Assembly: GCF_000708205.1 (NCBI RefSeq)
Contig: NW_014575563.1
Location: 1,812,068-1,876,067, forward strand
Reading direction: 5' to 3'
Length of the DNA: 64,000 nt
Origin: Mixia osmundae IAM 14324
Taxonomy: Eukaryota; Basidiomycota; Mixiomycetes; Mixiales; Mixiaceae
Every line of letters starts with the position of its first letter. Position 1 is the stretch's first letter. Positions 78 through 61,100 of the stretch are shown one piece after another. The translations under genes and the position numbers were made by a program. The notes beneath the pieces were generated by a model. That model searched no databases, was not told the origin of the DNA, and saw only the letters and a program-made list of their open reading frames with translations.

Positions 78-3000
78 TCACCGCTTCTCCTTGACNAANA
101 GCTGTAACGCAAGGAGAGATGCTGCNGTGAAGGCNACNAAGAAAGCGAGTAAGATANCAGCATCGGCATACAGTTGACTCGCTGCGAGTTCCTCTCATCA
201 GCTTGTCGCAAGCNATGCAGCTTGACATACCTCTGAAGCCAAACATACTGAGGATTGTCGCCGACGGAACCTCAATATCGACACCATACTGCAGAGGCGC
301 GTCAATACTGTACGGNCCTGATGCCACGTGGACTCACTCGATGGTCCTTGAGCTGCAAATACCGAAGCTCGTTGACGAGCAGCGATTCGAATGCGGCATG
401 AAAGAATGAGATTGTCTGCAGCCAACCGACAGCTTGCGGAACCTTGTCGCGATTGATCAAGAGGCCAGCGAACAGCAGGCTGCCGTAAGAAGTCAGTCAC
501 AGAGACGCAAGCATGTCGGATGACTTGCTTGAAGAGCATGACGAGGCTTCCGACTAGGTTAGCAACGCCGTTGTCGCTAATGACGATGCTGATGAACAGA
601 ACCACCGAGCTCGCGACGAGGTTGAATAGCACCAGGATGAGGATGAAATTCCAGAACTCTGTAACAGTCGGCACGAGACCGACAGGTCGATAGATGATCG
701 CGCCTAGAATGAAGGGTGGCACGANGCGCAGTGGCAGTATGTCGAAGAGCACCTTTGCAGTGAAATAGGTGAAAGGACTGTAGTACCCATTCGATCGCTC
801 GCGCATGAATAATATCCGCTCGTTGGCAAAGACAGTGAGGCTCGTCAAGCAAGAGAAGCCGAAGAGTGCCAGAACAAAGAAGAAGAGACCCATCCTGTTC
901 TGAAAGCCAGGAATGTCGTCCGTAACATTGCGGAANANGAAGGCACAGACGAGAGCGAGAACGACCGACAATACATAGTGGGAGAGCATAAGCATCGGAT
1001 TGCGATATAGGTTTTTGAACGCGCGACCGCTGAGGATAGTAAATTGCGTCCATAGCCCGGCCTTGCGATAACCTCGCACCTCGCTGTCGATCTCCAGATC
1101 GCGAAGAGCAGAACCGTCTGCAATTGCCAAAGTGCTGCTGATCGCGTTTTGAAAGGTCGACAGCTCTTCGCGAAAGGCAGTAGCCATGTGACTCGCTGAA
1201 AAGGTGTCTACGAGTTCCTGTACACGAGGAGATGATGACTCTGGTCTGCTGAATCTGCTGCCCGCGGTTTGCATCACGCTCTGACCGTTCTGCTGTCTCT
1301 GTGTCTCGGAGTTGGAGTTCTGTGAGCGCGCCAGCCGAGAAGTGAGTGCTGGCTCGTCAAGCTCTGCATCATCTCCGTCACCACTTAGTCTCGACCTCTT
1401 GCTGATCTCTGTATCGTCCTTTCTTGACGTGAGATCGACTGTAACGAGAGTTTAGTGGGAATCAGAGGCAGCAAGGAAGCAATGCTCACTGAGAAAGTCT
1501 GCTAGATTGTAGCCAGGCGGGCAGGCATGACCGATGCTTTCGAAATACGCCTGACAGTGATCGTATGATCCAGAATAGACAGTCCTGCCCTTGGCCAAGA
1601 GTAGCAGCTGGTCAAACAACGAGATGATATTGCTGCGAGGTTGATGTATCGTAAAGATGACCGTCCTGTTGTAATTCCTCGCCAATGCGCTAAGGCAATC
1701 CACGACGTTGAATGCGTTGTATGCGTCCAGGCCCGAAGTTGGCTCGTCGAGGAAAAGCACGGAAGGTGAAGTGACGAGCTCGCATGCGATCGAGACCCTT
1801 CGCTTTTCTCCGCCAGAGATCGAACGCTTGCCCGTCTCACCGATGCGAGAATCTCTGATGCTGAGGATACCCAGCTCGTGCATAGTCTCGAGCGTGCGCA
1901 ATCGCTTTGCGGCCAAGCTCATCTCGCGCGGCAGCCTGAGCTGAGCTGAATAGAAGACGGTCTCGTAGACTGTCAAGGTCGACATGAGTGTGTCCTCTTG
2001 ATCGACATAGCCGATGATGCGCTTGTACTTGTTGTCTGGGATGGTACGTCCATTGACGAGCACCGTCCCGCTGACAGTCCCTCGCTTGTCCTTCTTCGCA
2101 AGGATGTCTAGGAAGGTCGATTTGCCAGCGCCAGATGCGCCTACGATAGCCAACAGCTGCCCAGGCTTGACGGATCCGCAGACGCCCGACAGCACAGTCT
2201 TGCCGTTGACAGTATAAGTCAGATCAGCGAAATGGAGTGCAGCTGGGATATGCTCCGACATGAGCTTGTCAGTCTCGTCTTCTGGCAACTGTATCGTGCC
2301 GCGCCCGAGGTAGTCGGGGTGCTTATGGGCTCGGCCCAAGTACCAAAAGAGCAGAGAGAAGCCGACGACGAGCAAACCGGCAAATGCGATCGAGAATGCG
2401 ACCAGAGCGCTATTGTCAGGCGGGTCAGGTATCCTGAAGCCTGGCACCTGGGAATAGTGCATGCACTCTCCCGATTCGCAATTGAGCGTAATGTAGCTGT
2501 CGCCGAAGATGTCGTTGATGAGATTATTCATCGCTGGCTCCTCGAACTTGCAGCCAGATCCGTCAGACTTGCAAGAGAATCTGCCGGGTCCTCTGATCTC
2601 TTCTGTGAGAAAGTCTGATATGTCGACCGAGCCATCTTCGCCGCAGAGCATGCGTTCGGCAATACAGCTGCATTCGACCTCCTGACACCTGTAGTCGGTC
2701 GTGTTGACATCGTAGCCGATCTCGATGCTGCTTTGACAGTCTCGAAGACCGCAATAGAACGACTCCAGCTGGCCGATCCAGAATTGGAAGCCACATGTGG
2801 CCGTGCTATTGTCACACGTGAAAGTGACTTGCGGTGCGCGATCGGGCAGCATGTCAAGGATCTTTCGGTCTGTGCAGGGTGCTTGGTCAGTATATCTTCA
2901 CAGATAGATGGCAGCAGATGTACTGGTAACATCGCACATCTGATGCATCCGGTTGACCGTGTAGCCTCCTTTGTAGCAGACTGCGCCATTGCTTGCGCCT

Positions 3001-3600
3001 GGCTTGGGCGGCTCAGCTGACGCGTCCTTCGATATCTGATAGCGCTGTGCGTCTTCAGAGCCAGGCAGATAGCTGTAGGGTGCGCCATTGCCTCTATCAG
3101 GTGCAGCGACGAGCGGTACACAGGCCTCATCGGTCTGACACACTGTACGCGTATCGAGGGTCAGCATCGCTTTATCTCGATTGACTATTACCAGTCTCAC
3201 CATTGCAATTGATCCCCGTCCAGCCTAAGGGACACTCGCATTGACCGTCTGTGCGAGGATAGCGCTCGTTGCCATCTGCGAGCGAGCCGCACAATGGCTC
3301 GCTACAGTTCTGGCCACCGAAGCCCTCTGGACAGCGACACTGGCCATCATAAGGATTACATTCTCCAAATTGCAAGCAATTGAACGCCGGTAGCTGGCAA
3401 TTGAAGCATGGCGGGCATTCCTTGTCCCTCTGAGGCAGTGACAAGCCTGCGAACGGTCGCACTGATGACCTGAGATCGCTGAATGTCGTCACATTGGGCT
3501 GGCGTATGGAGAGCATCATCGGCTGGGGCGACAATGCGTCTGCCCTTGCTAGGCAGCCTGTCAGGGCTACCGCGAGGGCAGAGTAGACGAGGAATGTCAT
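78..3600 (-). CDS. ADP1: ABCG-family half transporter with extracellular EGF-like domains (Adp1-like)
   Basis: ATP-driven membrane transporter, about 1074 aa in seven exons: 3600-3201, 3142-2924, 2869-1490, 1438-529, 479-338, 288-231, 193-78; the joined length is a multiple of three. The start at 3600 opens a signal peptide ([16 protein letters not shown]). Two EGF-like Cys clusters follow ([24 protein letters not shown]), then a Cys-rich lumenal part and a membrane segment near residue 365. The ATPase domain has Walker [10 protein letters not shown], signature [12 protein letters not shown] and Walker [13 protein letters not shown]. The C-terminal ABC2 membrane domain ends in VKEKR. Length and layout match yeast Adp1 (1049 aa); the substrate is unknown. 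Intron 480-528 needs a GC donor (GCAAGT). Single N bases in the last kilobase leave the short intron at 194-230 uncertain. The start lies 105 bp from the divergent uL6 gene, so they probably share a promoter region. Confidence 0.9.
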
Positions 3601-3705
3601 CTGCAGAGGCCGGTGTCGAGCGATCTGATGCTGTGGATTGTCGTCACTCGACCAAGTCGATCGAATCTCGCGCGACAAGTCGAACTTGCCGCCTGGCCTC
3701 CGAGC

Positions 3706-4562: not shown

Positions 4563-4577
4563 TGGTAACACGTATGT

Positions 4578-7283
4578 CTATCGCCAGTCGTTAACGTCGT
4601 CTGCGCTTGTCCTGCGTGCGGTCACGATGGTCTGTGGCACCAGACTGGCCGATGAGGACTGGCTTGTCCGGCTTCGGCTAGCGTTATCTGGATGCATACT
4701 CGTTCTACCGGCCAGGGAGAGATCGATCGTGGAGCCATCATCCTGATCGCCCGGTGAGGCAGGATCGTCACTCTCTCTTCTTTTCCTCCCGTTTCCCAAC
4801 ATGGCGGCGGCAAAATTGCTCGCGCTCGTACTGGGCGCCGATACGCCTGATGAGCTTACGCCCGGGTTGCCCGAAACCAACGAGGATAGGACACTTGAGA
4901 AAGTGCCCTCAAAATCCTTCTTGGGCACTGACGAGGAGCTGTCACGCTTGTTGACGGGCGAGTCGGCGCCACTGCCCGCGAGGTCCCCCTCGTCGAGCGA
5001 CATATCACCGTACTGGCCGCTCTGGTGTCGCGCCAGTCTGGACGCCTGCTTTTTGGACTGTTGTCGCCGCGAAGCAGTCGCGTTCGAGAAGACAGGCAGG
5101 AGGAAGCGTTCGTCCAAAACGTTGAACCACTGACCGTCTCGCCAGACATGTTGCGTATGGTCTTGTCCGTCAGCAGGCGGCGGCTCGTCTGCTCGATCTG
5201 GGTCTAGTCTGGTGGGCGATTCGGTCTCGTCATCTTCTTCTCCAATCGATTGATCGCTAAAGTGACGATTGTGCCTTGGCGGCATAGAGGGATAAGGTAC
5301 GTTCCGCGAGCCGTTGGACTGCTGACGATGATGACCTCTTGTACTCCAGTCGATGTACTGACTGTCGTCCGCTGACGCCAAGCCATTCTCCATGGATTGC
5401 AGTGATTGCTTCGAGTTGTGCGCGTGGCTGACCTCGTGATACTGATTCGTACTGCCCGAGATGCCCGCATAGCCTTCGTCCTCAGAGCTATCATCTTCTT
5501 CGTCCACACCAGTGCGAATGCCGAGGATCTCCACCATCCGGCCGGTCGTCCCGCCAAAGAAGATGACAGTCAGCACGACGGTGACGAGGACGCTGGTACG
5601 CAGAGCAGCGGCGCCATCCCCCGTCAGGCCCGCTGCGAGAGCCACGCCGACTGCACCTCTGAGGCCGGCCCAGAAGAGCATCATCTGGTAAGAATGCGGT
5701 AGCTCGTCATGTCGCTGACCGCGCGCTTTGAAGACGACGTTGATGAGCTTGGATATGGGGAATACGGCAGCATAACGTGCTACACAAACTGCCAGTGCAG
5801 TGACGAGGATGAAGATAGGCTTGTAGACGAGTTGCTTTTGAGTGAAGAGGGCCAGGCCGAGATAGATGAAGATGAAATTCTCGCACAGCTGTGCGAGCGT
5901 ACGGAAGATGTATTTCGTCGCTCTCTGTGTCCGTCGTGACATGTTGTGATAGGCATAGTGCTTGAGCGTGATGCCACAGAACAGCAGGGACACGATGCCT
6001 GTGGGCGCGCTGTCATCAGTTTCGCGCTGCCTCGAGAGGAAATGGACGAACCGCTCATCGTGAGACCATTGCTGAAGAAGTAGCTCGTGTACGCCGTCAG
6101 CGTGACGAGACAGCTCTCGATCTCGGGGTAGTGAGCCAGGTTGGAGTGCTTGAGCATGAGCGAGAGTCCGAGGCCAAAGATGACGCCGAGCGCCATGGAA
6201 GTGCAGAACGTGAGAAGGAAGATGCCCACGCCGTGGAAGAAAGACAGCAGATGGATCTTCTCGCCATGAAACTTTGACAGCGTTCTGTACGGCCCATCGT
6301 AAGGTTGCGTATTGAGCGTGCTACAGAGGGTGCGCTTACTCGAACATGACGATAGCGACAGCATCGTTGAGGATGGACTCGCCAAAGATGACACTGTATA
6401 GCTTTGGGTCGACCTTGAGGGCATTGAAGATGGCGAGGATCGTGACGGGGTCTGTCGCGCTGAGGGTCGTGCCGTAGATGAGACATTCGATGAGCGTCAA
6501 CGACAGTCCTTCGAGTCCTAGCAGAGCCCATATATACACCAGCACGCTGTATCGATAGCGATCAGTGGCTATACGTTCAGCTTGAACAAGTCGCTCACCC
6601 GAGCACGATGGCAGAGATGAAGGTGCCAGTGAACGCGAAAGTGAGGATGACGCCAAAGTTGCGAAAGAAGTTCTCCTGCGAAGTTGCACATCAGCACGAG
6701 CCGTACGGTGGTCAGACATGATGACATGCCTGCCGGAGCTCGAAGCCACTGTTGAGAATGATGGGGGGCAGCAAGACATTGAGCATGATGGTGCTCTTGA
6801 ACGTGAGCATGCCTTGTATCGCGTCGCCTGGCAGGACCCGTATGACGAATCCGACGAACATGCCTGCACGGACGCGCTCAGACGAGTACAGAGCTGCACT
6901 GAGAGGACTTCACTCGCCAGCAAAGGTTGCTACAATCGTCTCGTGAACGCTCTTGATCTTGCGTACCTTGACTATCTCGACGGGTCAGCGCGCACCGATA
7001 GAGCGTGCCGATCTGCTCTCACGGTAGTAGGCCGTCCAGAAAGACAGGATCAGGAGGAGCAGCACCTGTCGAGAAGGGCACAGTGATGAGCTATCGCGTG
7101 GCTATCTCGATCCAGGTCACTGACGAGTAACAACGCTCTGGACGACCATAATTCCTCCGTCTCTGGGTCTAGCTCCGGGCCTGCGACAGACTTCAGCGTG
7201 GCAGTGTATTGAGACGTTGTGTGCGTGCCCGTGCTGGGCGGTGGAACCAGATCCGGCGGTGAGGGCGAGATAGCATCGGCCAT
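4578..7283 (-). CDS. NHX1: Endosomal/vacuolar Na+(K+)/H+ exchanger, NHX1/NHE family
   Basis: Cation/proton antiporter of endosomes or vacuole, 775 aa. Exons 7283-7125, 7065-7023, 6971-6918, 6863-6730, 6675-6599, 6546-6340, 6284-6052, 5998-4578. The start at 7283 is the first ATG of the frame. Typical NHE segments are visible: [29 protein letters not shown], the amiloride/pore region [33 protein letters not shown] and [13 protein letters not shown]. The last 300 residues are an acidic, Ser-rich cytosolic tail. Two introns (6864-6917, GCGAGT; 6676-6729, GCATGT) are best explained by GC donors; the GC choice keeps the family sequence ungapped. Intron 5999-6051 has the odd donor GTTCGT. Confidence 0.92.
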
Positions 7284-7384
7284 TGGATCTCGCAGGCAGA
7301 CGGACACGGCACGACTCGCACGACGCGCGACTCGACTCGACTAGCAAGGGACTAGTCCGCTGACGCCTCAGGCAGTCAGATGGG

Positions 7385-8126: not shown

Positions 8127-9733
8127 TCATGCTGCTTCTGCCGCTTTTTTGGCCTTCTTGGCGGCCTTCTTCTTGTCTACTTTGAGCGGCTGACTCAGCA
8201 GCGCCTTGACTTCTTCCGACTTGATCTCTGTGTCTGGCTTGACCAGCTCGGCAGAGAAGAAGTGAGGCGTGTGGCTCAGCCTCGTCACGCCCGTCTTACC
8301 GAGCATAAACGTGACCATGACTTGCGCGACCAAGTCGGAGCTCTTGTCGGCCGTGCTGCATCAGGCTCTTCAGGTCTCATCACGGGCTCGCAAGGTTGAG
8401 TGTACGCACTAGACATCAAAGGGCTTCATGAGACCATGCTGGACGCACTCTTGCATGCCCAGCTTCGCTCTTCGTTCGTCGTCCAGAATTCTGAGGGAGA
8501 AAGGGAAGGAGCCGGCCTTCTTTGAGACTTCTGAGAATGTCGCACGAGAAGTCTTCATTTTGAGTTGGTATGCCGATGACGTCTTGCCATACACTGTCGT
8601 AGGGACATTGCCTGTCGCTTTGGCCTACCACGCGTGTCAGGAGGAGGCCAACGACATGTGAGATGGGCTTACCTTTCCTTCCTCGCCGCTTGTGACGATG
8701 ACATCGAGAGCGAACACATCGCCCTCTTCGAGCAGAAAGTTGTTGTCAGAGTCTCTTCGACCCTCTGAGGTGGGAAAGACGGTGATCGTTTTCTTGGCAT
8801 AGATGTCGTTTTGTAGGTGCTTTCATTCAGCCACTCATCAGCTCATGTTGTACTCTGCGCTGCTGGACTGACTTGATGCGAGGACATGCCTGTACCAGCC
8901 AGCATCAGCTCTAGTCCACATTAGCCTTCAAGGCGGGGCATACCTTCGATTCCCTTGAGCTTGCCAGCATACTCGTGCAGCACCTTGGCTGCGCCATCGG
9001 TGACCTCCCAGTTCTTGCCGCCAACCTTGGCACTTCTCAGCGCAGCCTCGGCGACATGGTGAGCAGCAGCGATCAGGTCGGCCTTGCGACCGGTCACAGG
9101 GTCCTCTTTGCTCGCGCCTACGACGATCCTGCACGCACGAGGACCCGGGTGAGCTTGCTCGTGTGACCCAATCTGAATGAGAGGGCACGCGCGTTTCTGC
9201 TGCGATACTCGCGTAGCCGTCGATGTGGGCGCCCATGACAACCTTGACGAGGTCTCCCTTGGAGAGCTTGGTGATCGAATGAACGCTGTCTGAGGGCAAG
9301 GGGCTGTAGTGCGCCACGACGTTGTTGACGCTGATGCAGGTCGGATGGGAGATGCCTGGTGCCCCAGAAGAGTGCAAAGGTCAGCAAGGTGTTCGAGGGA
9401 GATCCCGAAGGCTTCGGGGCAGCTCGACGAGAGAGCTCTTCGTCGAATGGCGAGGGTAGCAGGAAAAAGGAGACAAAGTTCACCTTTAGCGACCTTGTGA
9501 GCGCCGGTCTTGTTGTAGACGTTGGCGCACTCGTCCGTGATGGCCTGATCACCCTTTGTGACGATGTCGAGGATGAGGGCAGAGTCGACGAGCAGGCTGA
9601 GGACATGCTTGAGCGCATTGCCGACGACGCTTGACGCAGCCTTGTATTTGTCGAGTACGACAGCGGGCACGACAGCCTCCTTCTGGGCTGCTGGCGCTGC
9701 CGTCTCACCTGTCTTGACGGTCTCTTCTGCCAT
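8127..9733 (-). CDS. EBP1/PA2G4-type protein (inactive methionine-aminopeptidase fold; curved-DNA/ribosome-binding)
   Basis: Homologue of human PA2G4/EBP1 and S. pombe Cdb4, proteins with the type II methionine aminopeptidase fold that bind ribosomes and nucleic acid. 401 aa. Exons 9733-9484, 9355-9193, 9128-8944, 8889-8873, 8819-8673, 8624-8410, 8355-8127. Conserved segments: GISHPTCISVNNVVAHYSPL, LSKGDLVKVVMGAHIDGY, VTGRKADLIAAAH, GIEGMSSHQ, LEEGDVFALDVIVTSGEEGK, AYQLKMKTSRATFSEV and the Lys-rich tail KVDKKKAAKKAKKAAEAA. Length agrees with human EBP1 (394 aa). Intron 9129-9192 requires a GC donor (GCGCGT) and then aligns residue for residue with EBP1 (HTFVV against ETIVV). Confidence 0.9.
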
Positions 9734-9835: not shown

Positions 9836-11430
9836 ATGTCGCTCCTGCAGAGGTCTCGCCAGGCTATCGCAGGCCCTTCACGGCTGAGGCAAGCAGAGGA
9901 TCGCCCGCTCTGATCACACACTGACGTTCTGGCGCATTCCAGGCTCGAGCATCTCTCAGGCTCATCGATCGCTCAAAGTCGGCGTCGTCTCACTCAACCG
10001 GCAGGACCGGCGTCATCTTCCCTGCTGTTGACGTCGTCTCGAACTCTAGCCACTCGCCGGAGTGGTCGATACGTTGACTTTGGACGGCGAGCGCTGTCGT
10101 ACGATGTACTCGGCAGATTAGGTCCCAAAGAGCCAAGTTGGCCAGCCGCTTCACCAGACGCAAACGAGCTCGCCCAAGCGACGGCACAGGAGAGTGCTCA
10201 GGTCTCAACACAGCCCGCAGAGAGCATGGCAGAGGAAGTCGTCGCGCAAGTCGAGGCGACCACTGACGCTGTCGTTGCCAATGTCGAGACTGCCTCGCAC
10301 ACGTTAGCAGAATACGGACTAGGCCAGAGCTGGTGGCCATCTTCGCTCGTTCAGCAGATGCTCGAGAACATACATACCGCTACCGGACTGCCCTGGTGGG
10401 CAACGACCATCGTCGCCGTCGTGATAACTCGGTCACTCATCTTTCCCATCGTCGCCAACGGCATGGCCAACAATGCGCGCATAGCGAACATTAATCCGCA
10501 GATGAAACCGTTGATGGCCGAACTGAAAGAGGCCAGGGCGAATAGCGATACTGCCAAAGTACAGGCAGTCTCGCAGAAAGCTCAGGCTCTTTACATTGCT
10601 AACAACTGCAGTCCACTCAAGATGCTCGGCCCGGTCGCTGCACAAGCCACAACTGCCATCACGTTCTTCTTCGCGCTGCGAGGTATGGCGTATGCCAAGT
10701 ACCCCAGCCTTCTTGACGGTGGCCTTGGCTGGTTCACCGATCTGACGCTGCGCGATCCCTACTATGCGCTACCCATCGCAAGCGCTGTCGCTACGCTCAT
10801 CGTCCTCGAGACTGGTGTAGAGACGGGCAACGAGGCAAGCAAGAACATGAAGATCGCCTTTCGATTCCTTGCAGTCGTCTCCATTGCCTTTGTTGCGACC
10901 TTTCCCGCTGTAAGTCTCTGATGCAAAGTCAATTGGCATTGTCTAAGGTGTCTTTGCAGGCTATGCTCTGGTACTGGACGATTAACAACACCTGGTCGCT
11001 GATCCAAGCCTTCATCATGAGACTACCAGCTGTGCGCAACTATTACGATATCCCGGAGCGCAAGAAGCAACCCGTCCTGCCAAACGCTCCGCCAGAGCTG
11101 AGCTTCACGGATTCTATCAGGAAGACATGGAACGACCAAGTCGCGACAGCGCAGCAAAAAGCCAGCGCCCGTACGGCCGAGCAGAGGCAATACAATGCCA
11201 TCCGACAGCCAGACGCGCGTACATACTTGGCACCTGCTCGCCGCCAAACTATCGCCCAAGCACAAGTGCGGCTAGACGATCTCGCTCACTCAGTTGGCGC
11301 TCCGGCTAGCGCCTCTCGCAACAGCCACAGCATATTAGCATCAACTTCAGAGACAGACTTCAGGGCGCAAAAGGCCCAAAGGCTTCAAGCCGCGCGCCTT
11401 CGCAAGCTAGAGAATGCGAGATCCAGGTGA
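9836..11430 (+). CDS. OXA1: Mitochondrial inner-membrane insertase Oxa1
   Basis: Inserts mitochondrially made and imported proteins into the inner membrane (YidC/Oxa1/Alb3 family). 496 aa. Exons 9836-9888, 9943-10909, 10960-11430. The first exon gives a presequence MSLLQRSRQAIAGPSRLR. The insertase core contains LPWWATTIVAVVITRSLIFP, PQMKPLMAELKEAR, the Asn/Cys segment YIANNCSPLKMLGP, and transmembrane stretches through AMLWYWTINNTWSLIQAF. The C-terminal matrix tail is basic, as expected for ribosome binding. The first intron can use a GC donor (GCAAGC, 54 nt) or a GT donor further upstream (88 nt); both keep frame. The stop is 28 bp from the stop of the convergent gene. Confidence 0.92.
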
Positions 11431-19798: not shown

Positions 19799-22700
19799 AT
19801 GCCTTGTTGCGATGTGAAGTTTGTCTGCTTCAGATCAGGAAGCGTGCCAACGGAGGCTATGTCGGGCAGACGAGCGAGCGTTGTGTCGACCAAGAGTGAG
19901 CCTGCGATGGAGCCAGACGGCTACATCTCAGAGGGCAGCCGCATCAGGCGTGACGGCTCGCACGGCGGACAGTATCGGACGAGCGGTCGACTGCGCAAAG
20001 CCAACAGCGATGCAGGGTCCCTGAGGCAGTCGAGACGATTGGCCGCTTACAACGCAGACGACGAGGCGTCATTCGAGCAACAGGTCAAGTATCTAACGGC
20101 ACCTCCTGCGGCGACATCAGGCAGCCAGCGTATGTCAGTCCTGGGCTCGAAAGGACCGGCTTCGGCAACTGTAGCAGCAAAGGACATGCAAAGTGTACGG
20201 CCGGCGCCGACACAACAGCTATCCGGATCGACTAACCGCTATACGATGATACCCGTCGAGCGCGCGAAGCCGGTATCGCCAGACAAGCGACAAAGTGAGC
20301 CGCATCGAGCCATAAGAGACGATGTGATCGCCTGGAACGCCAAGAGGGAGGGCAGGCAGACGACGGCCGCACTCGTATCGCCCCCACCGCCGCCCAGGCG
20401 AGCTACGCAGTCGTACAGTCGGCCTTCGAGCGCGATGAGTGGGGCCAGATCACCAGCTCAGCATCGTCAGACTCTGAATCTCAAGACTGCGCCCATTCCC
20501 CTGCCACCGAGACCTTTGGCGCTCCCTCTTCGTCGAGCGCCAAGCTTTGAATCAGCCAAAGTTGGCCTGGCTGTACCGCGACCAGGTTGCCGAGAGCCAT
20601 CGCAAGCGCGAATGGATCAACGATGCTACTCCGGCATGGCAGAGTCTGTGTCGAGCAATGCCTCGGACAGCAGACAGCGGGAAGATCAGAGCGAGCAAGA
20701 CGATAGCAAAGTTCTGGCCGTTCACGCGAATAATGAATACAACGGGAAGCCCGATCTCGTCAAGCAAGTTGCTCGTGAGAATTCTGACTTCACAGCATCA
20801 CCGTTGCCTTTGTGGACAGGGCCTCCGAAGCCCGCTGGCTTGCCAGAGCCAACCCAGTCCGACACTCGAGCGAGCGGTCTCGAGACTTTCTTGGGTCGCC
20901 AGCTCGACAGTCAGGGCCCCGAGGCGTTGCCAAACGGTGCAGAACAGCCAGCACAGCAAAGACCTCTTTGGTCAGAGAGCGTACGCGCACAGGCTGTTTC
21001 GCACAAGCCTGCCGACGCTCGGACGACACCGACAGCGGTCCATCGCAATCAGCCCATCTCTCCGCTCCGTACGGATTTTGGGCTAGACAGCGCAAGGAGA
21101 TCGCCTCCAGAGAGCTTAGCAACGCCAATTGGCCGCATAAGCTCTGCGAGCGCTGTGCCTGCTTCTGAGCATCCTAGAGGCAGGCTATCGAGTGCACGCT
21201 ATTCTAAAGCGTGTACACCACTGCCGTTCTACAGTCAGTCGCTGCCAGCAGACGACCTTTATCTCACTGATCTTGACGAACGCAAGCTTCAGCACAGACA
21301 GTCCCGCCCACCTCTGCAAGAATCATCGCATATTGTCGCGCAAGCTGCTGAAGCTGCTCTTGCTCGAATTCCCTCGAGACATTTGACTGTTGATAATCAG
21401 AGCCTATCCCGTACGCTTTCGCGACTATCGCTGTGCTCCCAGGAACCCGGTGACCGCAGCTCTGTCAATTACATCGTCAACTACCTTACAGACCGACAGC
21501 GTCCTATCAGCCGGATTCATACGCGCACTTCTTCAAGTGCCACTTCTGCTGTCTTAGCGTACAGACTCTCAAGCGAAAGCTCTCGGTCACGGGCTAGTCT
21601 CAAGGAGCTCTCTGTTGATTCACCAAAGTCGCTCTCGCCCGTCGATCGACCACCCCGTCGCTTACATCCGCCCTCACTTCGTCCGGGCGATCTAAGTGAC
21701 ACCGAATCAGTCTATTCAGAGCATTTAGAGGATCCAAGAGGCCCAGCGATCCAATCCCCCGCTTTAGCGCCGCCTTCGATCTCGTTGCAACATTCTGACC
21801 TTTCGTCATCATCTTTGGCCGGATCACGTCCGTCAGGCAAGCTCGCAGCGAGTTCTGCTTTGCGCATGCTGACGCCTCTGCACAGGTGAGACAGCGCCTG
21901 TCACTTCCAGGCCTGCACAACGAACGAGGACATCGACGACACCATCGATTTTGAAGCCATTAGCGCGACTGTTCAGCAGTAGCAAACATAGGAGAGATAG
22001 GTCCGCAAGTCCCGCTTTTGGCAAGCAGATTAGCGCTCCTCAGCCACAAGCCTCATCAGACAGAAGCTCGCGTTCATCTGGATATCTAGATCTACCTGCT
22101 GCTGCTCGTCAAAGGCTTGAGACGACCAGCGGTCAATACTGTGAGCAATCTAAAGCCGACCTTCAGCCGGACCACCCGGACTTGCAGCAGTCTTCTGACT
22201 TTGCCAGATCAAACCACGCACGCGATCTCTTTGCTCTCGATACATCGCATCTCACTCCGTTCGGCTTTCCTCAACTTCCGCCAACGTACCAGAGTGCGCT
22301 GCAATTGCCTGCTTCTCGCTCGGATTATCTGGGCAGTGACCAAGCATCAGAGCTTGATACTCACGAAGCGTGCGCCGGATCCTACGAAGAGGCGAGTCAG
22401 ACTCGCCCTCGAGCAGGCAATTCGTCGTCGCATAATTCGACAGGCAGCCAGCTACAGGAGCCTCCTTCGGCGTCTTATTCACCGCGCAGACTTTCTATAG
22501 CGTCATCTGCGTCTAATCTTGCCCAAGCCTCTAGATCTGCAGACATACGCGTCAGACAGAGCAGATCAAAATCAACGAGTAGTCTCCTAGAGGGCCCATT
22601 TTCTCAGCAGTCTCGATCTGTGTCAAGAGAGGCAACCGACGACGCCGACATGTTCTCGTCCCTTAAAGGCCGAGCGGCCAAGCGTGACAGTAAACGAATC

Positions 22701-29824: not shown

Positions 29825-32539
29825 CTAAACGATTGAGGTTCTGTTGAAGCCTTCGCGATACTTCAGACCTCCATGCACGCGGAAGCGGTACAGGCAGCCA
29901 TTCTCTGCGCCATGGGTAGACGTGATCTTGAGTAAGATCATCTCGTAGGCGAGGTTGAGNTCNTTGGCAGAGGCAACGATNGGCCAGGTCTGGGTAGCGC
30001 CAAAGTAGTCATCTGCNGGCGTGTAGGTACCATTNGTCAGATAGACCATTTTGCCTCGATCGTCTCCATATTTGAGCACGGCAAGTCGTTGTTCTTCGCT
30101 CTGACGCACGAGGTTCCAGTAGGGTCTGTCCGTGTCGTCGTTGAGTATACCCCAAACTTCGAAGTCCTTTGGCGCAATAGCGACGCTTGGCCAGACCGAA
30201 CGAGGTGCATGGTCGAGCGAGATGTGTGTAATGNAGACTGGCCCGCCAAACTGGATGCCGAGCGTTGTTCTGTTTCCNTTGAATGCCCAGCAGTGNCCGG
30301 CAGTCCTATCGATATCCATAGCGTATTCGGGTGGGCGAAAGGGATGACGGGTCGCGTACCACTTCTTGATGGGATTGGTGGTCTTGATGAAGGACTTGCC
30401 TGTCCANTTCTTGATGACGCGAGCGCCAGCAGAAGCGAGAGCTACGTCGGACATAGCGACGCCGTCTTGCGCGATAGCCACCTCTCTTTGGACCGCNTTC
30501 TGAAGCACGGTACGCATGCCGTCATCGTGGCTTAGAGATCCGTTGCCATTGCTATTTTTGTAGATGTCCGCTTGGAGCTCCTCTACCAATGAACTTTTGA
30601 CCGTCTCGAAGACAGCTGAGACATCCATTGAGGCTGCCGTCTGCATCTCTCCGCTCGCCCCTGGGCTCCCGCCCATCTGCTCTTTCATGGCTTGCTTGAT
30701 CATGTCGCTGACTTGCTGCGTTGCAACGCCAGACAGCGCGCCGCGCTCATCTGAGGTACAGCGTTCTTGCACTTGCTCGTTCAAGTGCTCGAACGATTGC
30801 TTGAGCTGTCCGTTTTCTTCGACAGTGGTTCCCATCATCTTGGACAATATCTCTGATTGGCTTTGCACGCGCGAGAGCGTGTCGTTCATCGCTCGCAGCT
30901 CGTCTTCAAAGGCTTCATGCGTCTGCTTGACGTGAGCTTTGAGGAGGTCGTGTGCATCCTTCAGAGAAGCAACGCGTGCTGACAGAAGGTGAAAGTCTCT
31001 TGCTTCGGTCTGTGCAGGGTTTTTGAGCTGGATCAGCTTGTCTGGACGCCAGCGTCAGCATGGACGTCCCATAAACCCGTCATGCCCACGTACCCGGATA
31101 GAGCATAGAAAGCACTGCAAATGCGATTGCGATGAATGCTGCTGCACCCACAACACCGTTGAGTGAGGCGTAAGCTCTCTTGAGTAATTGAGCTAATTTG
31201 ATGCCGTAGCGACCCGGCACAGGTTGAGCATGAGCGTCGTCCGACTCGCTCGCCCGCAAGCCTCCAGATGAAGGGCTGTGATGTTGCTGCTGCTTCTTAG
31301 CCGGCAGCCTAGGCACTGCCAATTTTGTGGTCGTGTGACCAGGCCTATCTCCTGAAGTCACCACGGGGCCAGTGCTGCCTGCGTTGTGCTCGGGATCTCC
31401 CTGCGATTGCTCGAGAGCAGCCACGATACTTTGAGCATCTTCTGCTGCGCTAGCAGAAGCAAGACCAGCATGTGGTGCCGCCGCGCCCAATGCATTGCCG
31501 CCGGGACGATTGGAACGGACGTTACGAAGATGGAATTCGTCCTCGTATGCCGATAGCTCGTCATCTCCCGACATCGAGAGACTGTCATTCCTTCGCAATG
31601 ACTCTGGATTTGACGGCTCCGCTGTGGGCTTTATTGGCGAGGGAACACCGATCTCGATATCCCCTCCATGTCTCGACAGAAGAGAATCAGGCGTCGACAA
31701 AGGCGTCACCTGTACGTGTCGTCTCGCTGTCGTCAGAGCGACAGCAGGGCTCAGCTGAATCGTGCTTGCTGGGCTGAGCGCTGGATAGTGCGAAGCTGCA
31801 TTTCTGGCTCGACGGGGACTGGCCTGGCTGCGCGACTGTGAACCACCGCGAGTGGGCGTTCCGTGTACACGCGTCTCTGAATGAAGAGGCTGAGCGGGGG
31901 ATGCGACAGTGTCTCGCAATTGACCATAGCTGTTCATTCTGATGCCTTTGCGACCCACGTCGAGTTGAGAGGTCGCTTCATCATCAGAAGCAAGGTCGTG
32001 ATCGTCAGCATTGGCACTGTCAGTAAGTCTGTTGGGGTTGCGTTGTTCGTCGCCAACAGGCGAGCCAGCGCTTGATCTTTTGCGCTTTGACTCTGCTTGA
32101 GACAACATCTCTGTAATCGGCGGTTGTGGCGCTGTCCCGCTGCCGCTAGCTGCACTGTCGGCTACCAAAGAGTACTCGAGACCTGAGCAAAAGTGTGAGC
32201 CTCTTCGGCTCTGCACGTGAAGCAGGGCGACTGACTGGCAGGTGCTACTGGGTGCGCTGAGGCCTCAGATGAATGTCTGCCTGCCGCTGATGTAGATGGA
32301 GCCTCAGGATCTCTGTTGTGCGACTCTTGAGACGAGACGAGACTTGCGCTGAGTATCTCTCGATGAGCGCTGCGACCGCGAGAACGAGCTCGCTCGGACA
32401 CGGTTGACCTGCTGCGAGGTCCCACAGGTTGGTGGTCGCCTGCTGCAGGTTCCAGCGACGACACGGTCGAGCTCAGCTGGGCGTTGAAGACAGCAGTAGA
32501 GCGGCGTCTACCCCCAACGGGCGTGCTGGACGAGAACAT
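29825..32539 (-). CDS. SUN-domain inner nuclear membrane protein
   Basis: Sad1/UNC-84 type protein of the LINC complex, which ties the nuclear envelope to the spindle pole and cytoskeleton. About 866-873 aa. Exons 32539-32176, then 32131 (or 32110)-31094, then 31041-29825; two acceptors fit the first intron. The first 430 residues are disordered and nucleoplasmic. One membrane segment (VVGAAAFIAIAFAVLSML) lies near residue 445, then a coiled-coil (residues about 475-590). The SUN domain follows from about 668: WYATRHPFRPPEYAMDID, CWAF.GNRTTLGIQF, VWPSVAIAPKDFEVWG and LYRFRVHG at the end. Several N bases at 29960-30497 leave single residues unknown. Confidence 0.88.
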
Positions 32540-34139: not shown

Positions 34140-35485
34140 CTAGTGAGGCGCGTTGCGAACGAGCATTCTGATGTTGTTCAAGAAGACTTGGATCATGTCT
34201 CTGTACAGACTTGGTTGACCCGCAGCTTGCTTTGCGCCTTCTTGCATGATCAAATCTGTCGGTGTGAGCTCTAGCTCGAGCTCGTGCCGTGGCTCTATTG
34301 TCTCTGGTGATTTGACTTGCGTTAGATCGATCTGAGTGATCTGATGCCGATAAGACAAGCGATCTTTGTACCTTTGACGGCTAGGCCGATCTGTAGGCAT
34401 GACAGCTGCGTAAACAACGTCAGGCAGAACCTAAAACAAGCAATGACGAAGCTTACTGGGCGATTCTATGCTGACCGAGATCCGGTAGTCAAAGGAGCGC
34501 TTGGGGCAGTAGACGTTCATATCCGCCACTTTACGCTTGATGATGACGCCATTAGGAACGACCTGGCCAGTCTTCTGGTCTGTGGTCACTCGGAGCTTGG
34601 CAAAGTTGTCGCTGGGGAAGCTGTGTATGCTGTCGAGATGCCTCGTATGTACATACTGTATCCGCTCGCCGTCGTATTCCTGTTTGTTGGACTCTGCAAA
34701 GCGAGTATTGAGCATTTGGTTGTAGAAGCCATGCTGCTGTACTGTCATGTTGCTCTCGAATCTGAAGGTACTTGCATCTGTCAAGACTGGTCGACCGCAT
34801 CAGCTCGTCACCGACCGGCCTGGTTATGGACGTACTCGTCTCGACAGCGACGGGAAAGATGATGCGCGCTTGTGTACGGTTGTCTATCAGCGTGCCTAGC
34901 TTTGCTTCAATCTGCAATTCGCTCGTTGTTGCTCAGCAGCGCATCGACGCAGGCATGCAGACCGCTTGCCTCTACATTCTCGAGAGTCCTCGTGAAGGCC
35001 CATATCCAATCGGCGACTTCTCTCGTGAACTCGTCTATCGGCGCCAGACCCAGCATAGACGCCTCGAGCGGTCTGATCGTGCCGTCTAGGGGCAGCTCAC
35101 TGATTGCAGGCGGTATCTGCACGCCTTCATTGTTCTTGGGAGGCTTGAGACTGTCATTGGAGCTTGAAGGCGATACCAAAGCTGTGTCCTGTTGCTTGAC
35201 ATGCTCACTGTGAGCCGCGCTGCCGTTCATAGCTCGCTTTGCTCGCGCAGGGTTTCCCTGGCTCGTTGCGGCGTCGTCAAACGTTCGCTTCAACGCGGGT
35301 GCTGCTGTTGTTGAGTGCGTAGCTTGGGATGCTCCTAATTGTGACGGCAGAGGTGAAGCAGGCCCGTAGCGAGGCGCAAAATCGCTGCCGGGCTGCATTG
35401 ACATCTGCAGGCAGAGCGCGTTCGACCGCAACGAATGTGGGCCGAGTGGGGTATCGCGAGGCGGGCAGAGGCTGTCAGCACCCAT
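34140..35485 (-). CDS. CET1: mRNA capping enzyme beta subunit, RNA 5'-triphosphatase (Cet1/Pct1 family)
   Basis: Removes the gamma phosphate from nascent mRNA, first step of cap formation; fungal tunnel-type metal-dependent enzyme. Exons 35485-34970, 34911-34836, 34777-34457, 34405-34140, 392 aa (365 aa if the ATG at 35404 is used). The first ~140 residues are disordered. The tunnel strands are visible: NVEIEAKLGTLID with the metal-binding Glu-x-Glu, RFESNMT, KLRVTTDQKTG, GVIIKRKVADMNVYCP, DYRISVSIE, RQRYKDRLSYRH and the final RHELELELTPTDLI. The first intron (34912-34969) has a GC donor (GCAAGC): only that splice keeps both metal-binding glutamates. Confidence 0.9.
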
Positions 35486-46409: not shown

Positions 46410-50439
<4,030 letters not shown>

Positions 50440-53277: not shown

Positions 53278-53352
53278 GAGCCCGATGGAAGGCTGACGGA
53301 GCCAGAAAGTGTTGGTCGAATCGCCAAGGCGAACGCGTTTCTGCTGAGACGG

Positions 53353-54546
53353 ATGCAGCTGCAGACTGAAGGCGAGTGAGGTCTCTTTGAGCTCGTGTGG
53401 ACGGTGGCTCAACGGTGGCACAGCTGCTGTGCGAGGTACAGACGAGGATGCATCAGTATCGAGACTCTCAGCAGTCTCGCTCGGCTACTATGACGATCCT
53501 TTCGCGAGCATGTTCCTCAAGCCCTCACAAGCATCACGGCGTCCCCCTCTGATCAACATCGGCACGACGCTTCGTACGAGAGCAATAGACCAGCTCGTCG
53601 GCAAGTTCCTCGACCTGCCGCGCGTCAGAGGCAAAGGAGCTCAAGTCGTCTCGCTCGGCGCTGGCAGCGATACTCGCTTCTTCAGGCTGGCGAACAACTT
53701 GATCAGAGCAGATCAGACTGGCCAAGCCTCGACGGTGCTCCCTACGTGGGTGGAGATCGACTTTGTCGAGTCAACGACGCGAAAAGCGATGACCGTATGG
53801 AAGCGTCGAAACGACTTGCTTGCATCCGACGCCGGCTCTGCTAGCATCAGTGAGCAATCGTCCCTGATCTCTCTTCGCAGTCTCACATGCTGTAAGCGCA
53901 CGGTGGTAGCGGACTTGCTTCGACGCACTACTGCCTGTTGCCGGGTGACTTGCGACAATGGACGGCCACCGTCACATCGAAACTCAGCATGCTCGACACT
54001 TCAGCTCCCACGCTGATTCTAGCAGAATGTGCACTGGTCTATCTCGACGCAGCATGCACGCGTGAGCTCATGCAATGGTTCAACAAGACTTTCGAGACTT
54101 TGCATGCTGCCATCTATGATCCGTTGAACTTGCAAGACGCTTTCAGTCGCGTGATGCTGTCCAATCTCTCTGTGCGTTCACAACTTGTCGACTGTGGTCC
54201 GGCTTGACGGAGATCGACAGGCCCGAGGTATTGCGATGCCAGGCTTAGCAGAGCACTCCGATCCAGGTCTGCTGCGGCGACAGCTGCTCGGTCATGGCTT
54301 CACTCGCAGCGACGCCATTTCGCTCAAGACGTATCGCAAGAAGCATCTTGATCATGGCGAGATGATTCGGTAGGCATATAAACCGCCGGTCTTCACGGAT
54401 GCTGACATACCCGCAGCTTGTCGCAGGTAGAGCGACTGGATGAGATCGAAGAGCTCGACCTGCTGCTCGATCATTACGCGGTCGCCTGGGCGAGCAAAGC
54501 GGCGACTGGCGAGTCGCTCAGCTGGTCAAGTCCAGATCGAGATTGA
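53353..54546 (+). CDS. PPM1: PP2A leucine carboxyl methyltransferase (Ppm1/LCMT1)
   Basis: Methylates the C-terminal Leu of the PP2A catalytic subunit, steering B-subunit assembly. 332 aa, exons 53353-53371, 53424-53849, 53897-54171, 54221-54369, 54417-54546. Family segments: DEDASVSRLSAVSLGYYDDP, the SAM-binding VVSLGAGSDTRFF, WVEIDF, CLLPGDLRQW, PTLILAECALVYL, and the end LDLLLDHYAVAWASK. The 19-nt first exon is followed by an intron with GC donor GCGAGT (53372-53423); this is the only ATG-bearing splice I found that meets the conserved frame. The third exon starts after an AAG acceptor. The last 29 nt overlap the coding end of the convergent F-box gene. Confidence 0.88.
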
Positions 54547-56453: not shown

Positions 56454-56574
56454 GCCTGGGCCCAGCAAGCTAGCTTGGTCACTTGGCCGCTCACGTGACA
56501 GCGACTTCAGACTGCAATTCATTTGTAACCCCATTTCGCATGCATCATCAAGATTCGTATGACATGAGCATCAC

Positions 56575-56651
<77 letters not shown>

Positions 56652-56796
56652 CATGGCTGTTACACTAGGTATCGCTGAACATGATGTCAAACAACAAAAG
56701 ATAAGGCTCCAGAGCCTGCTGGCTCTCTGCTAGACACTGATATGATCGAGAGGCTCCTGCTTACGTTGCTTTGGCGTATGCGCATGCGTGTGCGCC
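56454..56796. other. Convergent intergenic region with a CAT microsatellite
   Basis: 343 bp between the stops of YPD1 and the RHO2-like gene; holds the trinucleotide run described separately, otherwise nothing. Confidence 0.6.
56575..56651. repeat. (CAT)n microsatellite, about 26 units
   Basis: Uninterrupted catcatcat for 77 bp, preceded by one imperfect unit (cac). Intergenic, not in a gene. Length likely varies among strains. Confidence 0.97.
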
Positions 56797-57775
56797 TCAG
56801 AGAATGATACAGCATCGGCTGTCGGTCGACTCGTCTCCGCCATCGTGACCGTTGCCGTTGGCATGGGACCGCCTTCGCTTGTTCTTCTCTGCGCCCTCGT
56901 TGGTGCCTCCTCCACCGGTCGATGCGGGCGTTCTGACCAGCATGGCCGCTCTCGTCGCCGCTTCAAAGACGTCGTCCACACCTTCGTTGCGCAGCGCTGA
57001 ACATTCCTTGTAGCATCTCGCGCCTATACTCTGTGCGACTTGTTCTCCCTTTTGCACCCCATCACGTGAGCAAGAGTGCGTTCATGACTCGGAGGCCCGA
57101 CTGACCTGACGCTTCTGCACGAATCGGTTGCCCGCACCCATCTCTCCGGCCTCATCTCGCAAGTCGCGCTTGCAGCCGACGAGGATGACAGGGATCTGGC
57201 GACCGCAGATTTGTCGGACTTCCTCGTTCCATTTGACCGTGACGTTCTCGAGCGAGTCTGGCGTGTCGATCGAGAACGCAATCAGGATGACATGTGACTT
57301 TGAGTAGGACAGGGGACGCAATCGCTGTCATCACCCATTCAGACTTTCAGGTTCTGACGTGCTGTAGCCGGCTGACACACCTCATACTCTTCTTGTCCAC
57401 TGTGGGCGAATCAGCAGATGCAATCGACGGTCTGCAGGCGGAGCACTTACGCTGTATCCCAGAGCGCGAGTTGAACAGCTTTGCCGTCGAGCCTGATCTC
57501 GGCAACATAGTTCTCAAATATTGTCGGCTCGTATTCTCTGTGCGCGACGAGGGCGAGCAGTCAGCGATTGCGTTGGCTGCAGCAAAAGCGAAAGACCCAC
57601 TGCGGGAATTCGCCCATTGCAAAGACGGACAGTAGCGAAGTCTTTCCGCAGGCTCCATCCCCCACAATGACGAGCTTGCGTCGAAGCTGAGGGACGCAAG
57701 CAAGGGTGATAAGTCTATGCCCAGATTGCGCACGTTGGGTGGACGCACCGCGGCGGTATTGTTTCCGGGAGTCAT
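56797..57775 (-). CDS. RHO2: Rho-family small GTPase, Rho2-like
   Basis: Membrane-anchored GTPase switch for wall and actin control. 229 aa, exons 57775-57749, 57686-57601, 57537-57451, 57399-57381, 57324-57106, 57048-56797. P-loop GDGACGKTS at about 18-26, effector loop [10 protein letters not shown], switch II DTAGQEEYE, base-recognition VGCKRD, and [15 protein letters not shown] before a Gly/Asn/Arg-rich variable region. The end is CCIIL: a CAAX box ending in Leu (geranylgeranylation) preceded by a palmitoylatable Cys, as in yeast Rho2. Rho1 itself usually ends in a Lys-rich CVLL. Exons of 27 and 19 nt were placed by the conserved frame. Confidence 0.88.
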
Positions 57776-58109
57776 GTCGCACGGTACCTATGCTATCAGG
57801 GGTAGGAAACAGCGCACAAAGTGTGCGTCAATTATCGAAGATGAGTGCGATGCCCGCTTGGCAACGTCAAAGGCTAAGGGCGCCGTCACCGCGAGGTCGG
57901 CCTAGGTCACTGCTGGACCCGTTTTGAGCCTGCCCAACGGATACTGAGGCAGAACGTCGCTTTGTCCGAGAACAGGCCGAGCGTTTGCAGCAGACGAGAT
58001 TGACTGCCAACGCTAACAGGTTGGCATCTAAAGGTCGTGCTTAGCGTGCAGACCGTACTCTGCACGATGCTGCCTCAAGGCGCGCGATTGACGCCTGATT
58101 CAGCCCCTG
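57776..58109. other. Divergent intergenic region between RHO2 and the SEC2-like gene
   Basis: 334 bp, no convincing frame. Presumed promoters for both neighbours. Confidence 0.5.
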
Positions 58110-61100
58110 ATGAAGCGAGGTCGACCGGAGCACCCTCTATCTGGACCTGACAGGCTGACTGCGGTAGATCGTTGCGCTGCCTGCTTCGTTGCTCGGCCGC
58201 GCTCCCCCGAACTCCGCCTTCGAGCGACGCGTGTCACACAAAACGCGCCAGCAAAGTGGCCAAGCAATCAGCGGCTTATGCCGTCTGTGGCCTCCTCCCG
58301 AGACCCGCAAGTCCGACTGGGGAGCGGTAAGATATCAGCCATATCGCATCCCTTCGCAGCCGGCAGCCGTCCCAAGCTGCCTGCTCTATCGACCGATACG
58401 GCTCTCACAGACAATCGGTTGCCATCTTCGGCAGCAGGCACGGGCACTGCGCCTGGCTATGGACAGGCTATCACCAAGACCGAGCCCTTTCGCTCCAAGA
58501 CACCTTCGGAAACAAGGATACCCTATTCCATCGGCGAACAGCGCTCGACACGCGCACAGAGCGTCGTTGCCCGCTCGGCGCCGCGCTCGCCTGCTTCTGC
58601 CGGCGCAGTAGGCCAGACACGCTCGCTTTGGAGAGACTGGGAGACAACTGCGCCACCGTCTGCTCCGCCCGCGATCCCCCACGCGCCAAAATCGCCTACT
58701 GCATCCCTCAGAAGTCTGCCAAGAACTGCCTCGCGCCGACCGCGTTCGCCTGATGAATTTCTGCCACCCGTGCCAGCTCTGCCGCCGGTACTCAAGCGCG
58801 CAGACACCGAGCCTCATTCTTCCGGCAGCGCTTTCTTCGCGGAGCCAAGACGCCCAAGACAGAGACAAGGCACGCAGGATAGCGTGAAGAGCTCGATCAG
58901 TGAGCCGAGGTCTGTGCGCGTACCCTCGCGAGATCCCGCCCCACGGTCAGGCCACAGAATACAAGAGGCCTTGCCTTTGCCAAAGTCAGGCTCCTTGGAT
59001 CCCGATTCGCCTGTTGATGCGCCTTTAGGAGCACCAGGGCGCGACCGGGACGTTCATGCCATCCCTTTAGCATCCGAGGCTACAGAGCCACCGAGGCTGT
59101 CGTCCTTTCAGCACCGCCCAGAATCAAGTCAGGGCAGTCAGTCCGCCAGTGGTCAGAGTAGCCAGCGTGAATCTAGCAGAAGTACTTCACTAGCTGGCAG
59201 CAGCTTGCCCACTCGAACATCCCGCGAGTCCTTGTCGAGCTCATCTGGCCGGTCTCGCCAGCCGAGCCACGATACCGATCGTGAACCAAGTCTCGAGATC
59301 GATCTGCCTCCTTGGGCCTTCGATGCTCGTCCGGCAAATCAGACCGAATCTCATAGAGCCCGGCAAGCCTCATCTTCGTCCTCCCAGCGCTCGTCAAGTA
59401 GAGGCGCAAGCTTAGCCAGCGGTAGCAACGCTCGCTTGGACGCCTTTCTGGGCAGAACGCCAGCGATGCCCTCGCCCTCGATGTCACGGAGCGAGTCCTC
59501 AACCCCAAGCCTGGCAGAATCGCTGAGAGATGACAGATCAGTCGAGCTTGAGCCGGTCACACCAAGGCCATCACAGCCAGACCACAAACGCGTGCAAAGC
59601 TCGTCGACCAATCATTTTGACTTGAGGCTCAGTACAGCCGACAGCCTCGATGGCTCTGGTCCTATCACGCCCCGACCGATATTGCGGCCGGCTACCTCGC
59701 AGATATCAGCTACAGGTGACAGCGCTGCCGATGTGACCATCGACGCGCGTGCAGACATTGAATTTGCGAGGCGCGTCATGGGCAACGCGAAAGGCATGTC
59801 AATGCTCTATCTCGAAGAAGCATATGGCTGACTTCTTGCGGCAGGTGCTGACTCGTCACCAACAAAACGTATAGCCGCTCGACAGGAGCAGGCTATACAA
59901 GCCATACAGCGCTTAGTGCCCCGATACGACGCCCTCGTGCGTGATCAGCCTCCAGTCGTGCCAGAGGCTGATGCAATGGCAGGTCGAATATGTCGAAACG
60001 CTGACGAGCAGACAGAACGATCTCGAGGCTTCCCTCAAGATCGCCCGCTCGAACGTTACGCTCGTGGAACAGCATGCGGAGACGCTGTCAGAGGCACTGA
60101 GGCGGCGCGACCAAGACTCGCGCATGCTGCGCTCAGATGACAAGCCAAGTATCGAGCTCGAGCGAACACGAAGCGGCACTTCTGATACTGGACAAACTAC
60201 CGAGCTGCAGGCGCCCGCACTTGAGCGCAAAGACTCGTTCTGGCGACGGGCGGGGAAGAAGTTGGCTGGAGCAGCTGAAGATGAGCCGCCTCGGATGCGC
60301 CGCACTGCGAGCGAGAGCAGCAATACCAGTTCTGCTCCTTCGTTGACCAGCTTGACAGAGGTGCTCGATCCATCTGAGAGCTCGGTGGAGGATCCCTCCA
60401 TCAACGACCTCTGCGCTCCTCTATCAGACAAAGCCACTACGGCAGACTATATCGCTCGGCTACAAGACATACAGGTCTACATGAATCTCTGCCGATCGGG
60501 CTACAACCGCCAGCGTCAAGAACACGAGTCTCTTCATAGCTCGCATGCCACCCTTCAGCAAGCATTCAACGCGCTGCAGCAAGAGCATGCCTCGACCAAA
60601 GCTGCGCATGTCAAGCTGCAACATGCCCACGGTGAAATGCAGACTGAAGTCGAGAGCCTGTCGGAGACACTTTTCGGCGAGGCCAACAAGATGGTTGCAG
60701 ACGAGCGCAAAGCTGCTGCTGAGTTGCAGGCAGAGCTTGATACTGCTCGACGTCAGATCGAACAGCTCTCCCAAGATGCTGCTGCTGCCACCGTCATTCG
60801 TGCCGAATACGACAGACTCAAGAAGCGCGTTGGCGCCAGCCCTACACCTAGTCCAGATCGAACTGTCGCTGGCATAGAAGCATTGAGAACGATGCACTCG
60901 GGGTCCCCTGGTCAAGGCAGTCTTGAACTACAGCCTCCTCGACCGCCATTCTGGCGCAACATCAGCAATATGTCAGGCGTGTCTGCTGTGTCGAATCCTG
61001 CAAGTCTCGCCAGCCTGGTCACGGAGGCTCATGAGGATGCTATGGCTCATGAGGAGAACGAGCTCTCGCCGGGAGCGAGTGGGGGCGCCCGGGCTTGGCT

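Follow-up and report, generated by a model that had tools for sequence, protein, structure and literature searches.

Few bases in eukaryotic genes are as conserved as the one at position +2 of the donor splice site. A 64-kb stretch of the genome of Mixia osmundae, a fern pathogen and basidiomycete of the Pucciniomycotina, raises the question of whether a fungus can splice many of its introns with C at this position, and by what means. The stretch, hereafter the window, is C1:1,812,068-1,876,067 of the IAM 14324 assembly (13.51 Mb, 19 contigs, written here as C1, C2 and so on); its base composition is 54-58% GC in 4-kb steps. An initial annotation of the window had proposed that about one intron in ten starts with GC. 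From our analysis, it is highly probable that GC donors are truly used for some 6-9% of the introns of M. osmundae, the mismatch to U1 small nuclear RNA (snRNA) being offset by stronger flanking positions.

At their stated coordinates, all nine intervals that had been named begin with GC and end with AG on the coding strand. The sites are as follows, with Pfam scores given for the GC splice against the best alternative unless noted otherwise.

480..528, minus strand: GC-AG intron (GCAAGT) of an ABC transporter gene; Pfam ABC2_membrane, 96.4 against 70.7 bits (+25.7); gene-model delta 7.4.
6676..6729, minus strand: GC-AG intron (CAG/GCATGT) of a Na+/H+ exchanger gene; Pfam, 112.5 against 103.6 bits (+8.9).
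6864..6917, minus strand: GC-AG intron (GCGAGT) of the same exchanger gene; Pfam, 57 against 46.4 bits (+10.6).
9129..9192, minus strand: GC-AG intron (GCGCGT) of a PA2G4/EBP1-like gene; Pfam Peptidase_M24, 52.2 against 40.9 bits (+11.3).
34912..34969, minus strand: GC-AG intron (GAG/GCAAGC) of an mRNA-capping triphosphatase gene; Pfam mRNA_triPase, 89.6 against 80.9 bits (+8.7).
53372..53423, plus strand: GC-AG intron (AAG/GCGAGT) of a leucine carboxyl methyltransferase gene (53353-54546); Pfam, 39.7 against 37.4 bits without exon 1.
59794..59844, plus strand: probable GC-AG intron (AAG/GCATGT) of a coiled-coil protein gene; gene model, delta 1.1.
9889..9942, plus strand: possible GC-AG intron (GAG/GCAAGC) close to the N-terminus of a predicted protein of 496 aa; gene model, delta 1.9.
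21828..21885, plus strand: ambiguous intron with a GT donor at 21828 (GTCCGT) or a GC donor at 21837 (GCAAGC); shared acceptor, both in frame and open.

Six of the seven GC introns that the initial annotation regarded as needed or favored are thus supported by homology: those at 480, 6676, 6864, 9129 and 34912 by Pfam, and the one at 53372 by a deposited protein. The seventh, at 59794, is favored by the gene model, and none of the Pfam families compared was decisive across its junction. As for the two sites considered possible, the model favors the GC donor at 9889 and prefers the GT alternative at 21828 to the GC donor at 21837. Deposited Mixia proteins share the GC junction at all three sites compared (6676, 6864 and 53372): the exchanger L969DRAFT_92119 carries the junctions of both introns of its gene, and our model with the 53372 intron is 100% identical over 332 aa to L969DRAFT_57516. 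The window exchanger and the deposited IAM 14324 protein are 98% identical. In addition, alignments with Protein Data Bank (PDB) chains run gap-free across GC junctions in the exchanger (6676..6729), a G-alpha gene, the PA2G4-like gene (9129..9192; chains 7oya_q1 and 2q8k_A) and a carbamoyl-phosphate synthase. The donor at 9129..9192 is among the weaker ones of the supported set.

For the intron survey we used 264 kb of DNA, made up of the window and 200 kb of contig C2 (C2:400001-600000). Our gene model combines coding statistics, donor, branch, acceptor and length on both strands; all 16 donor dinucleotides were permitted under one flat penalty on the 15 non-GT donors, so that the 14 dinucleotides besides GT and GC act as decoys. 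The model called 395 GT and 28 GC donors, then AA (9), CA (5), TC and TG (4 each), CG, TT, TA, AT and GA (2 each), and CT and AG (1 each). GC was the top non-GT donor at all four penalties tried, with 25, 28, 36 and 40 calls versus 7, 9, 11 and 13 for the runner-up. For the window alone, the automatic model gave 91 GT and 7 GC donors; the 53372 intron was missed in this joint run and recovered when its locus was run alone. A self-trained version of the model yielded 44 GC introns in 453, a share that we do not take as an estimate because its prior feeds on itself. Calls were made for decoys too, with a total of 34 against 28 for GC, as would be expected if the GC introns were an artefact in which GCRAGT near CAG is over-called in GC-rich coding DNA while the real introns start at a GT donor close by.

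The homology test argues strongly against such an artefact. For 21 of the 28 GC introns, the spliced protein segment was scored with Pfam and compared with the best model in which that donor was forbidden; T10, T14, T16, T18, T22, T24 and T27 were omitted at first as lying outside likely domains, and a later trial of T22 was uninformative. The junction fell inside a Pfam match in 18 of the 21 (those of T04, T09 and T19 lay outside), and the GC splice scored higher in all 18. The gains were 25.7, 20.4, 3.4, 18.3, 27.5, 6.9, 10.6, 8.9, 1.5, 10.6, 2.7, 12.7, 27.2, 8.7, 19.4, 12.1, 11.3 and 15.9 bits, that is, +1.5 to +27.5 bits, with 15 of the 18 at 6.9 bits or more. Each value is for the best family per intron; in the DNA ligase case, a second family shifted by 0.4 bits in the opposite direction. 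When four of the 34 decoy donors (T28, T35, T36 and T42) were given to Pfam, two were uninformative, T42 lost and T28 gained. On re-reading, T28, called as TA, proved to have its donor two bases further downstream, where the sequence is GC, and a TAG acceptor (121.1 versus 109.3 and 96.3 bits), and the decoy that gained is thus itself a GC donor. This locus, miscalled by the model as having a TA donor, is an ammonium transporter gene (C2:417663). Homology shows that the predicted GC...AG ends conserve the reading frame, and we infer that the GC introns of M. osmundae are excised in RNA.

We also compared spacings without using any annotation. Over 354 kb, we counted donor-like sites having a good branch and a YAG acceptor 45-60 nt on versus 75-170 nt on, leaving out sites that adjoin a better GT donor. 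In the context AG/xxRNGT, where xx is the donor dinucleotide, GC was found 18 times versus 3.5 expected (z 7.2) and GT 11 times versus 3.3 (z 3.9), while the 14 other dinucleotides had a mean z of -0.10 (standard deviation 0.98, maximum 2.0). Without the filter, the excess in this context was +15.0 for GC and +12.8 for GT, with CA the top decoy (z 2.4). Some of these sites belong to introns that the Pfam test had already covered; the result is therefore a control against chance and not a second sample. Where position -1 is not G, GC showed no excess (43 versus 55.0 expected; GT 91 versus 25.2), and the wide contexts summed to -11 for GC (-10.3 and -1.0), which is too noisy to reveal a few per cent. 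The GC excess is positive only in strong donor contexts. Taking together the 18 of 18 Pfam tests, the contrast between a z of 7.2 and a decoy maximum of 2.0, and the three of three deposited proteins, we regard the artefact as very improbable, although the broad spacing tests, which lack a GC excess, would agree with it.

Several observations weigh against our interpretation or limit it. Three of the Pfam gains are small (1.5, 2.7 and 3.4 bits). No GC excess was seen in spacing with C at +6 (162 versus 172.8) or with a pyrimidine at +3 (247 versus 248.0), nor in an earlier and broader spacing test at 45-58 nt with any donor-like context (-5.6, z -0.3), nor in simple motif counts. The decoy CT reached z 3.4 in the spacing context where -1 is not G, and the unfiltered decoy CA up to z 3.6 in another context. 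The contexts were picked after confirmed GC donors had been seen, with seven tried per run, filtered and unfiltered. When GC was given the GT prior, introns outside AG/xxRNGT numbered 23 and 118 for GC versus 3-30 and 50-103 for decoys, which amounts to over-calling of GC outside the strong context (118 versus 50-103). The model's penalty on GC favors strong donors and so inflates the contrast between GC and GT flanks, and the rate estimate given below rests on 18 GC introns and a GT sample of 30. In the negative broad tests, the signal is diluted by weak contexts; these tests stand against a high GC rate in weak contexts.

How common, then, are GC donors? To place GT introns on the same scale, we took a random 30 of the 395, of which 14 had their junction inside a Pfam match (the borderline cases G09 and G24 being counted as outside). 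The Pfam-scaled GC share is then 9.0%, from 18 GC versus ~184 GT introns (Monte Carlo 95% interval 5.2-15.4%). If all other GC calls are taken as false, the floor is 18/413, or 4.4% (95% interval 2.6-6.8%). The annotation-free spacing estimate is ~6%, obtained from the GC excess of 14.5 in AG/xxRNGT versus a GT excess of 197 + 35 in all contexts. GC donors would therefore make up about 6-9% of introns, or one in eleven to seventeen, as estimated from 264-354 kb of the 13.5 Mb. Both this range and its floor are clearly above the 2% that the initial annotation had set as a mark for the genome-wide rate, here in the stretches sampled; the raised share that it proposed is confirmed, while its figure of one in ten lies close to the upper end of our range. 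Its statement that fungi usually have about 1% agrees with the mean of 1.009% over annotated fungal genomes given in the available part of a published survey (PMC7072748), and the share in Mixia appears to be roughly six to nine times this mean.

What distinguishes the GC donors is their context. The count of matches to the U1 complement, with +2 excluded, is 6.33 of 9 for the 18 confirmed GC donors and 4.50 of 9 for GT donors (Mann-Whitney p 1e-7); the earlier remark that positions +3 to +6 resemble a normal donor thus holds, and the flanks fit even better than those of GT. G at -1 is present in 15 of 18 confirmed GC donors versus 160 of 395 GT donors, A at +3 in 15 of 18 versus 153 of 395, and AAGT in 8 of 18 versus 19 of 395. 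The full AG/GCRNGT occurs in 8 of the 18, and 3 of the 18 are without -1G: GC donors in weak contexts exist but are few. The GT donors of the surveyed DNA are weak themselves (-1G 41%, +3C 22%, +4C 30%, +5G 91%) and are accompanied by a strong CTGAY branch. Median intron length is 54 nt for GC and 51 nt for GT; length, branch and acceptor were also used to find the introns. In the AG/G-RNGT context, GC is about as common as GT: the ratio of C to T at +2 is ~14.5:7.7 filtered and 15.0:12.8 unfiltered, and with GC given the GT prior the model called 14 GC and 21 GT introns in AG/xxRNGT versus 0-3 per decoy.

A changed U1 snRNA, with A7 altered or a second U1 type present, could in principle read +2C directly, and the initial annotation had suggested that U1 pairing may be relaxed in this lineage and that U1 snRNA, U1-C and LUC7 be compared with relatives. 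We located the relevant genes.

C4:1086418-1086591 and C4:1110569-1110742, in opposite orientation: two U1 snRNA genes, found by 5'-end pattern and a permissive Rfam scan.
L052 (C1:1192904-1195966), positions 1266-1560, minus strand: U1-C gene; hand reading with a GC-AG intron and a 12-base exon, Pfam 71.5 versus 37.4 bits for the model version.
L054 (C9:298300-299500), positions 631-689, minus strand: GC-AG intron (GCAAGT, 59 nt) of the LUC7 gene, called by the gene model; Pfam 203.8 versus 201.8 bits, weakly supported.

The two U1 copies are identical over 174 bases and lie ~24 kb apart. Their permissive Rfam match (32.8 bits, E 0.00014) is under the gathering score; they were missed by a genome profile search with RF00003 and, in the case of one copy, by an Rfam scan of 17 loci at the gathering score, and a genome search with the full U1 sequence yielded no copy beyond these two. 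Their 5' end is AUACUUACCUUG, in which A7, opposite donor position +2, is normal, and both copies read AUACUUACCU. At position 11, U1 has U where the Rfam consensus has G, but this position faces the exon and not +2. The region of the expected Sm site (AATACTTCC) looks unlike the usual one. U6 keeps ACAGAGA and carries ATACAGAGAAGATTAGC, the usual box; the U1-C finger gives a full-length match to its Pfam model. To judge from these sequences, the cause of the high GC share does not lie in U1, U6 or the U1-C finger, and the suggested relaxation of U1 pairing found no backing. Nothing in favor of a changed U1 was found; with the two U1 genes located being identical and reading AUACUUACCU, and with strong flanks that a direct reading of C would not require, a changed U1 is hardly credible. 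Of additional note, a loss of METTL16 is not shown, as the genome has a PF05971 match above the cut-off.

The U1-C gene has three introns in ~115 coding bases, including the 61-nt GC-AG intron next to the 12-base exon that the automatic model missed. One LUC7 gene was found in the genome. The GC introns of both genes lie outside the sampled stretch. GC-AG introns in both U1-associated genes read (in part) would fit a mainly regulatory role, in which GC introns are retained or alternatively spliced and provide feedback on U1-C and LUC7; in C. elegans, GC-AG introns have reportedly been studied for regulated splicing. We consider such a role improbable, since GC introns are spread over genes whose Pfam names have no common theme, their flanks are stronger and not weaker than those of GT introns, two genes make too small a basis, and the gain for LUC7 is just 2.0 bits.

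We return to GC donors with compensating flanks, a reading that the context data support. The GC introns look like ordinary introns of the major spliceosome, being short with a CTGAY branch and a YAG acceptor; GC-AG introns themselves are ordinary, and it is their number that is unusual. C at +2 forms a C-A mismatch with A7 of U1, and this mismatch is probably offset by better pairing elsewhere, namely AG as the last two exon bases, a purine at +3, G at +5 and U at +6. U5 pairing at -1 and U6 pairing at +5 may carry this compensation. In full-consensus donors, C and U at +2 are about equally frequent, as though exchanging one for the other made almost no difference there, whereas in weak donors GC is too rare to exceed the background. 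The tolerance itself may have its source in a spliceosomal protein or in relaxed selection at +2: either a later protein that reads +2, or weak selection combined with GC-biased mutation, could explain the high share. Proteins in contact with the 5' splice site include Prp8, Cwc24/RNF113, Yju2, Prp28 and U1-70K.

In its simplest form, the second of these alternatives requires no change in the spliceosome: under ordinary tolerance of GC-AG introns, GC-biased mutation and weak selection in a small fungal genome, +2C would drift up in strong donors. The window is 54-58% GC, the C:T ratios at +2 in AG/G-RNGT would agree with mutational equilibrium, U1, U6 and U1-C appear normal, and flanks of the same strong kind have been described for GC donors in human (PMC11732430). 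On the other hand, fungal annotations average 1.0% GC-AG, and fungi are said to exceed animals and plants in GC content (PMC7072748); base composition alone should therefore not suffice. We see drift as a serious candidate that falls somewhat short of an even chance. A stronger form of our proposal, that the Mixia spliceosome is largely without a penalty on +2C, with +2U and +2C interchangeable in full-consensus donors and at mutational equilibrium (C ~36-65%), is conceivable but rather doubtful. If the penalty were lost, recognition of +2 would sit after U1 pairing, in a relaxed protein or a proofreading step, and the GC introns of U1-C and LUC7 might serve as dose sensors.

Why U is needed at +2 after U1 leaves is, to our knowledge, not settled. 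A fungus that combines a small genome and frequent +2C with unaltered U1 and U6 recognition sequences would lend itself to a search for the step and protein that read +2. The high share is also a warning for annotation, as tools restricted to GT would break or shift about one intron in eleven to seventeen in Mixia. The initial annotation had expected the trait to mislead gene finders; our own gene model was indeed wrong at several sites, whereas the deposited annotation splices all three that we compared.

Two side observations concern the surveyed DNA. AA donors were called 9-12 times across model runs; in the spacing contexts printed they had no clear excess (largest z 1.7, or 3.0 without the filter), and the AA donor at the start of the ribosomal protein L5 (uL18) gene (C2:419700-419960) is probably a mis-modelling. 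Single N bases, 21 in all, are scattered over 96-938 of the window, near the 3' part of the ABC transporter gene, and over 29960-30497, probably reflecting low-coverage assembly.

Compared with other fungi, M. osmundae uses the same dinucleotides, GC-AG introns being six to nine times rarer on average in those fungi; the word Mixia is absent from the main text of that survey (PMC7072748). In the full-text literature, we found no paper joining Mixia with GC-AG introns, nor GC-AG splicing with Pucciniomycotina; most subscription papers are outside this coverage, so the trait may be reported there. A published RNA-seq set for Mixia comprises about 35 million aligned reads (PMC3376729). The highest GC-AG share met in the literature passages is that of the nematode Globodera pallida, 3.53%, with 3.46% in G. 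rostochiensis (PMC4901422). As described in those passages, Globodera resembles Mixia in its raised share, in GC flanks that fit the consensus as well as or better than those of GT, and in that its GC-AG introns were noticed during gene-model curation (PMC4901422). Mixia differs in being a fungus, in an estimate about twice as high and in the concentration of its GC donors in full-consensus contexts; the Globodera case is backed by RNA-seq and conservation between species (PMC4901422), that of Mixia by protein homology and sequence context. Human GC 5' splice sites amount to 0.87% and have consensus G at -1 and +5, for which the portion of the report available proposes compensation via U5 at -1 and U6 at +5 (PMC11732430). 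They share the -1G/+5G compensation with those of Mixia but are far rarer, and because the GT donors of Mixia are weak at the exon end (-1G in 160 of 395), its GC donors stand out more than human ones do.

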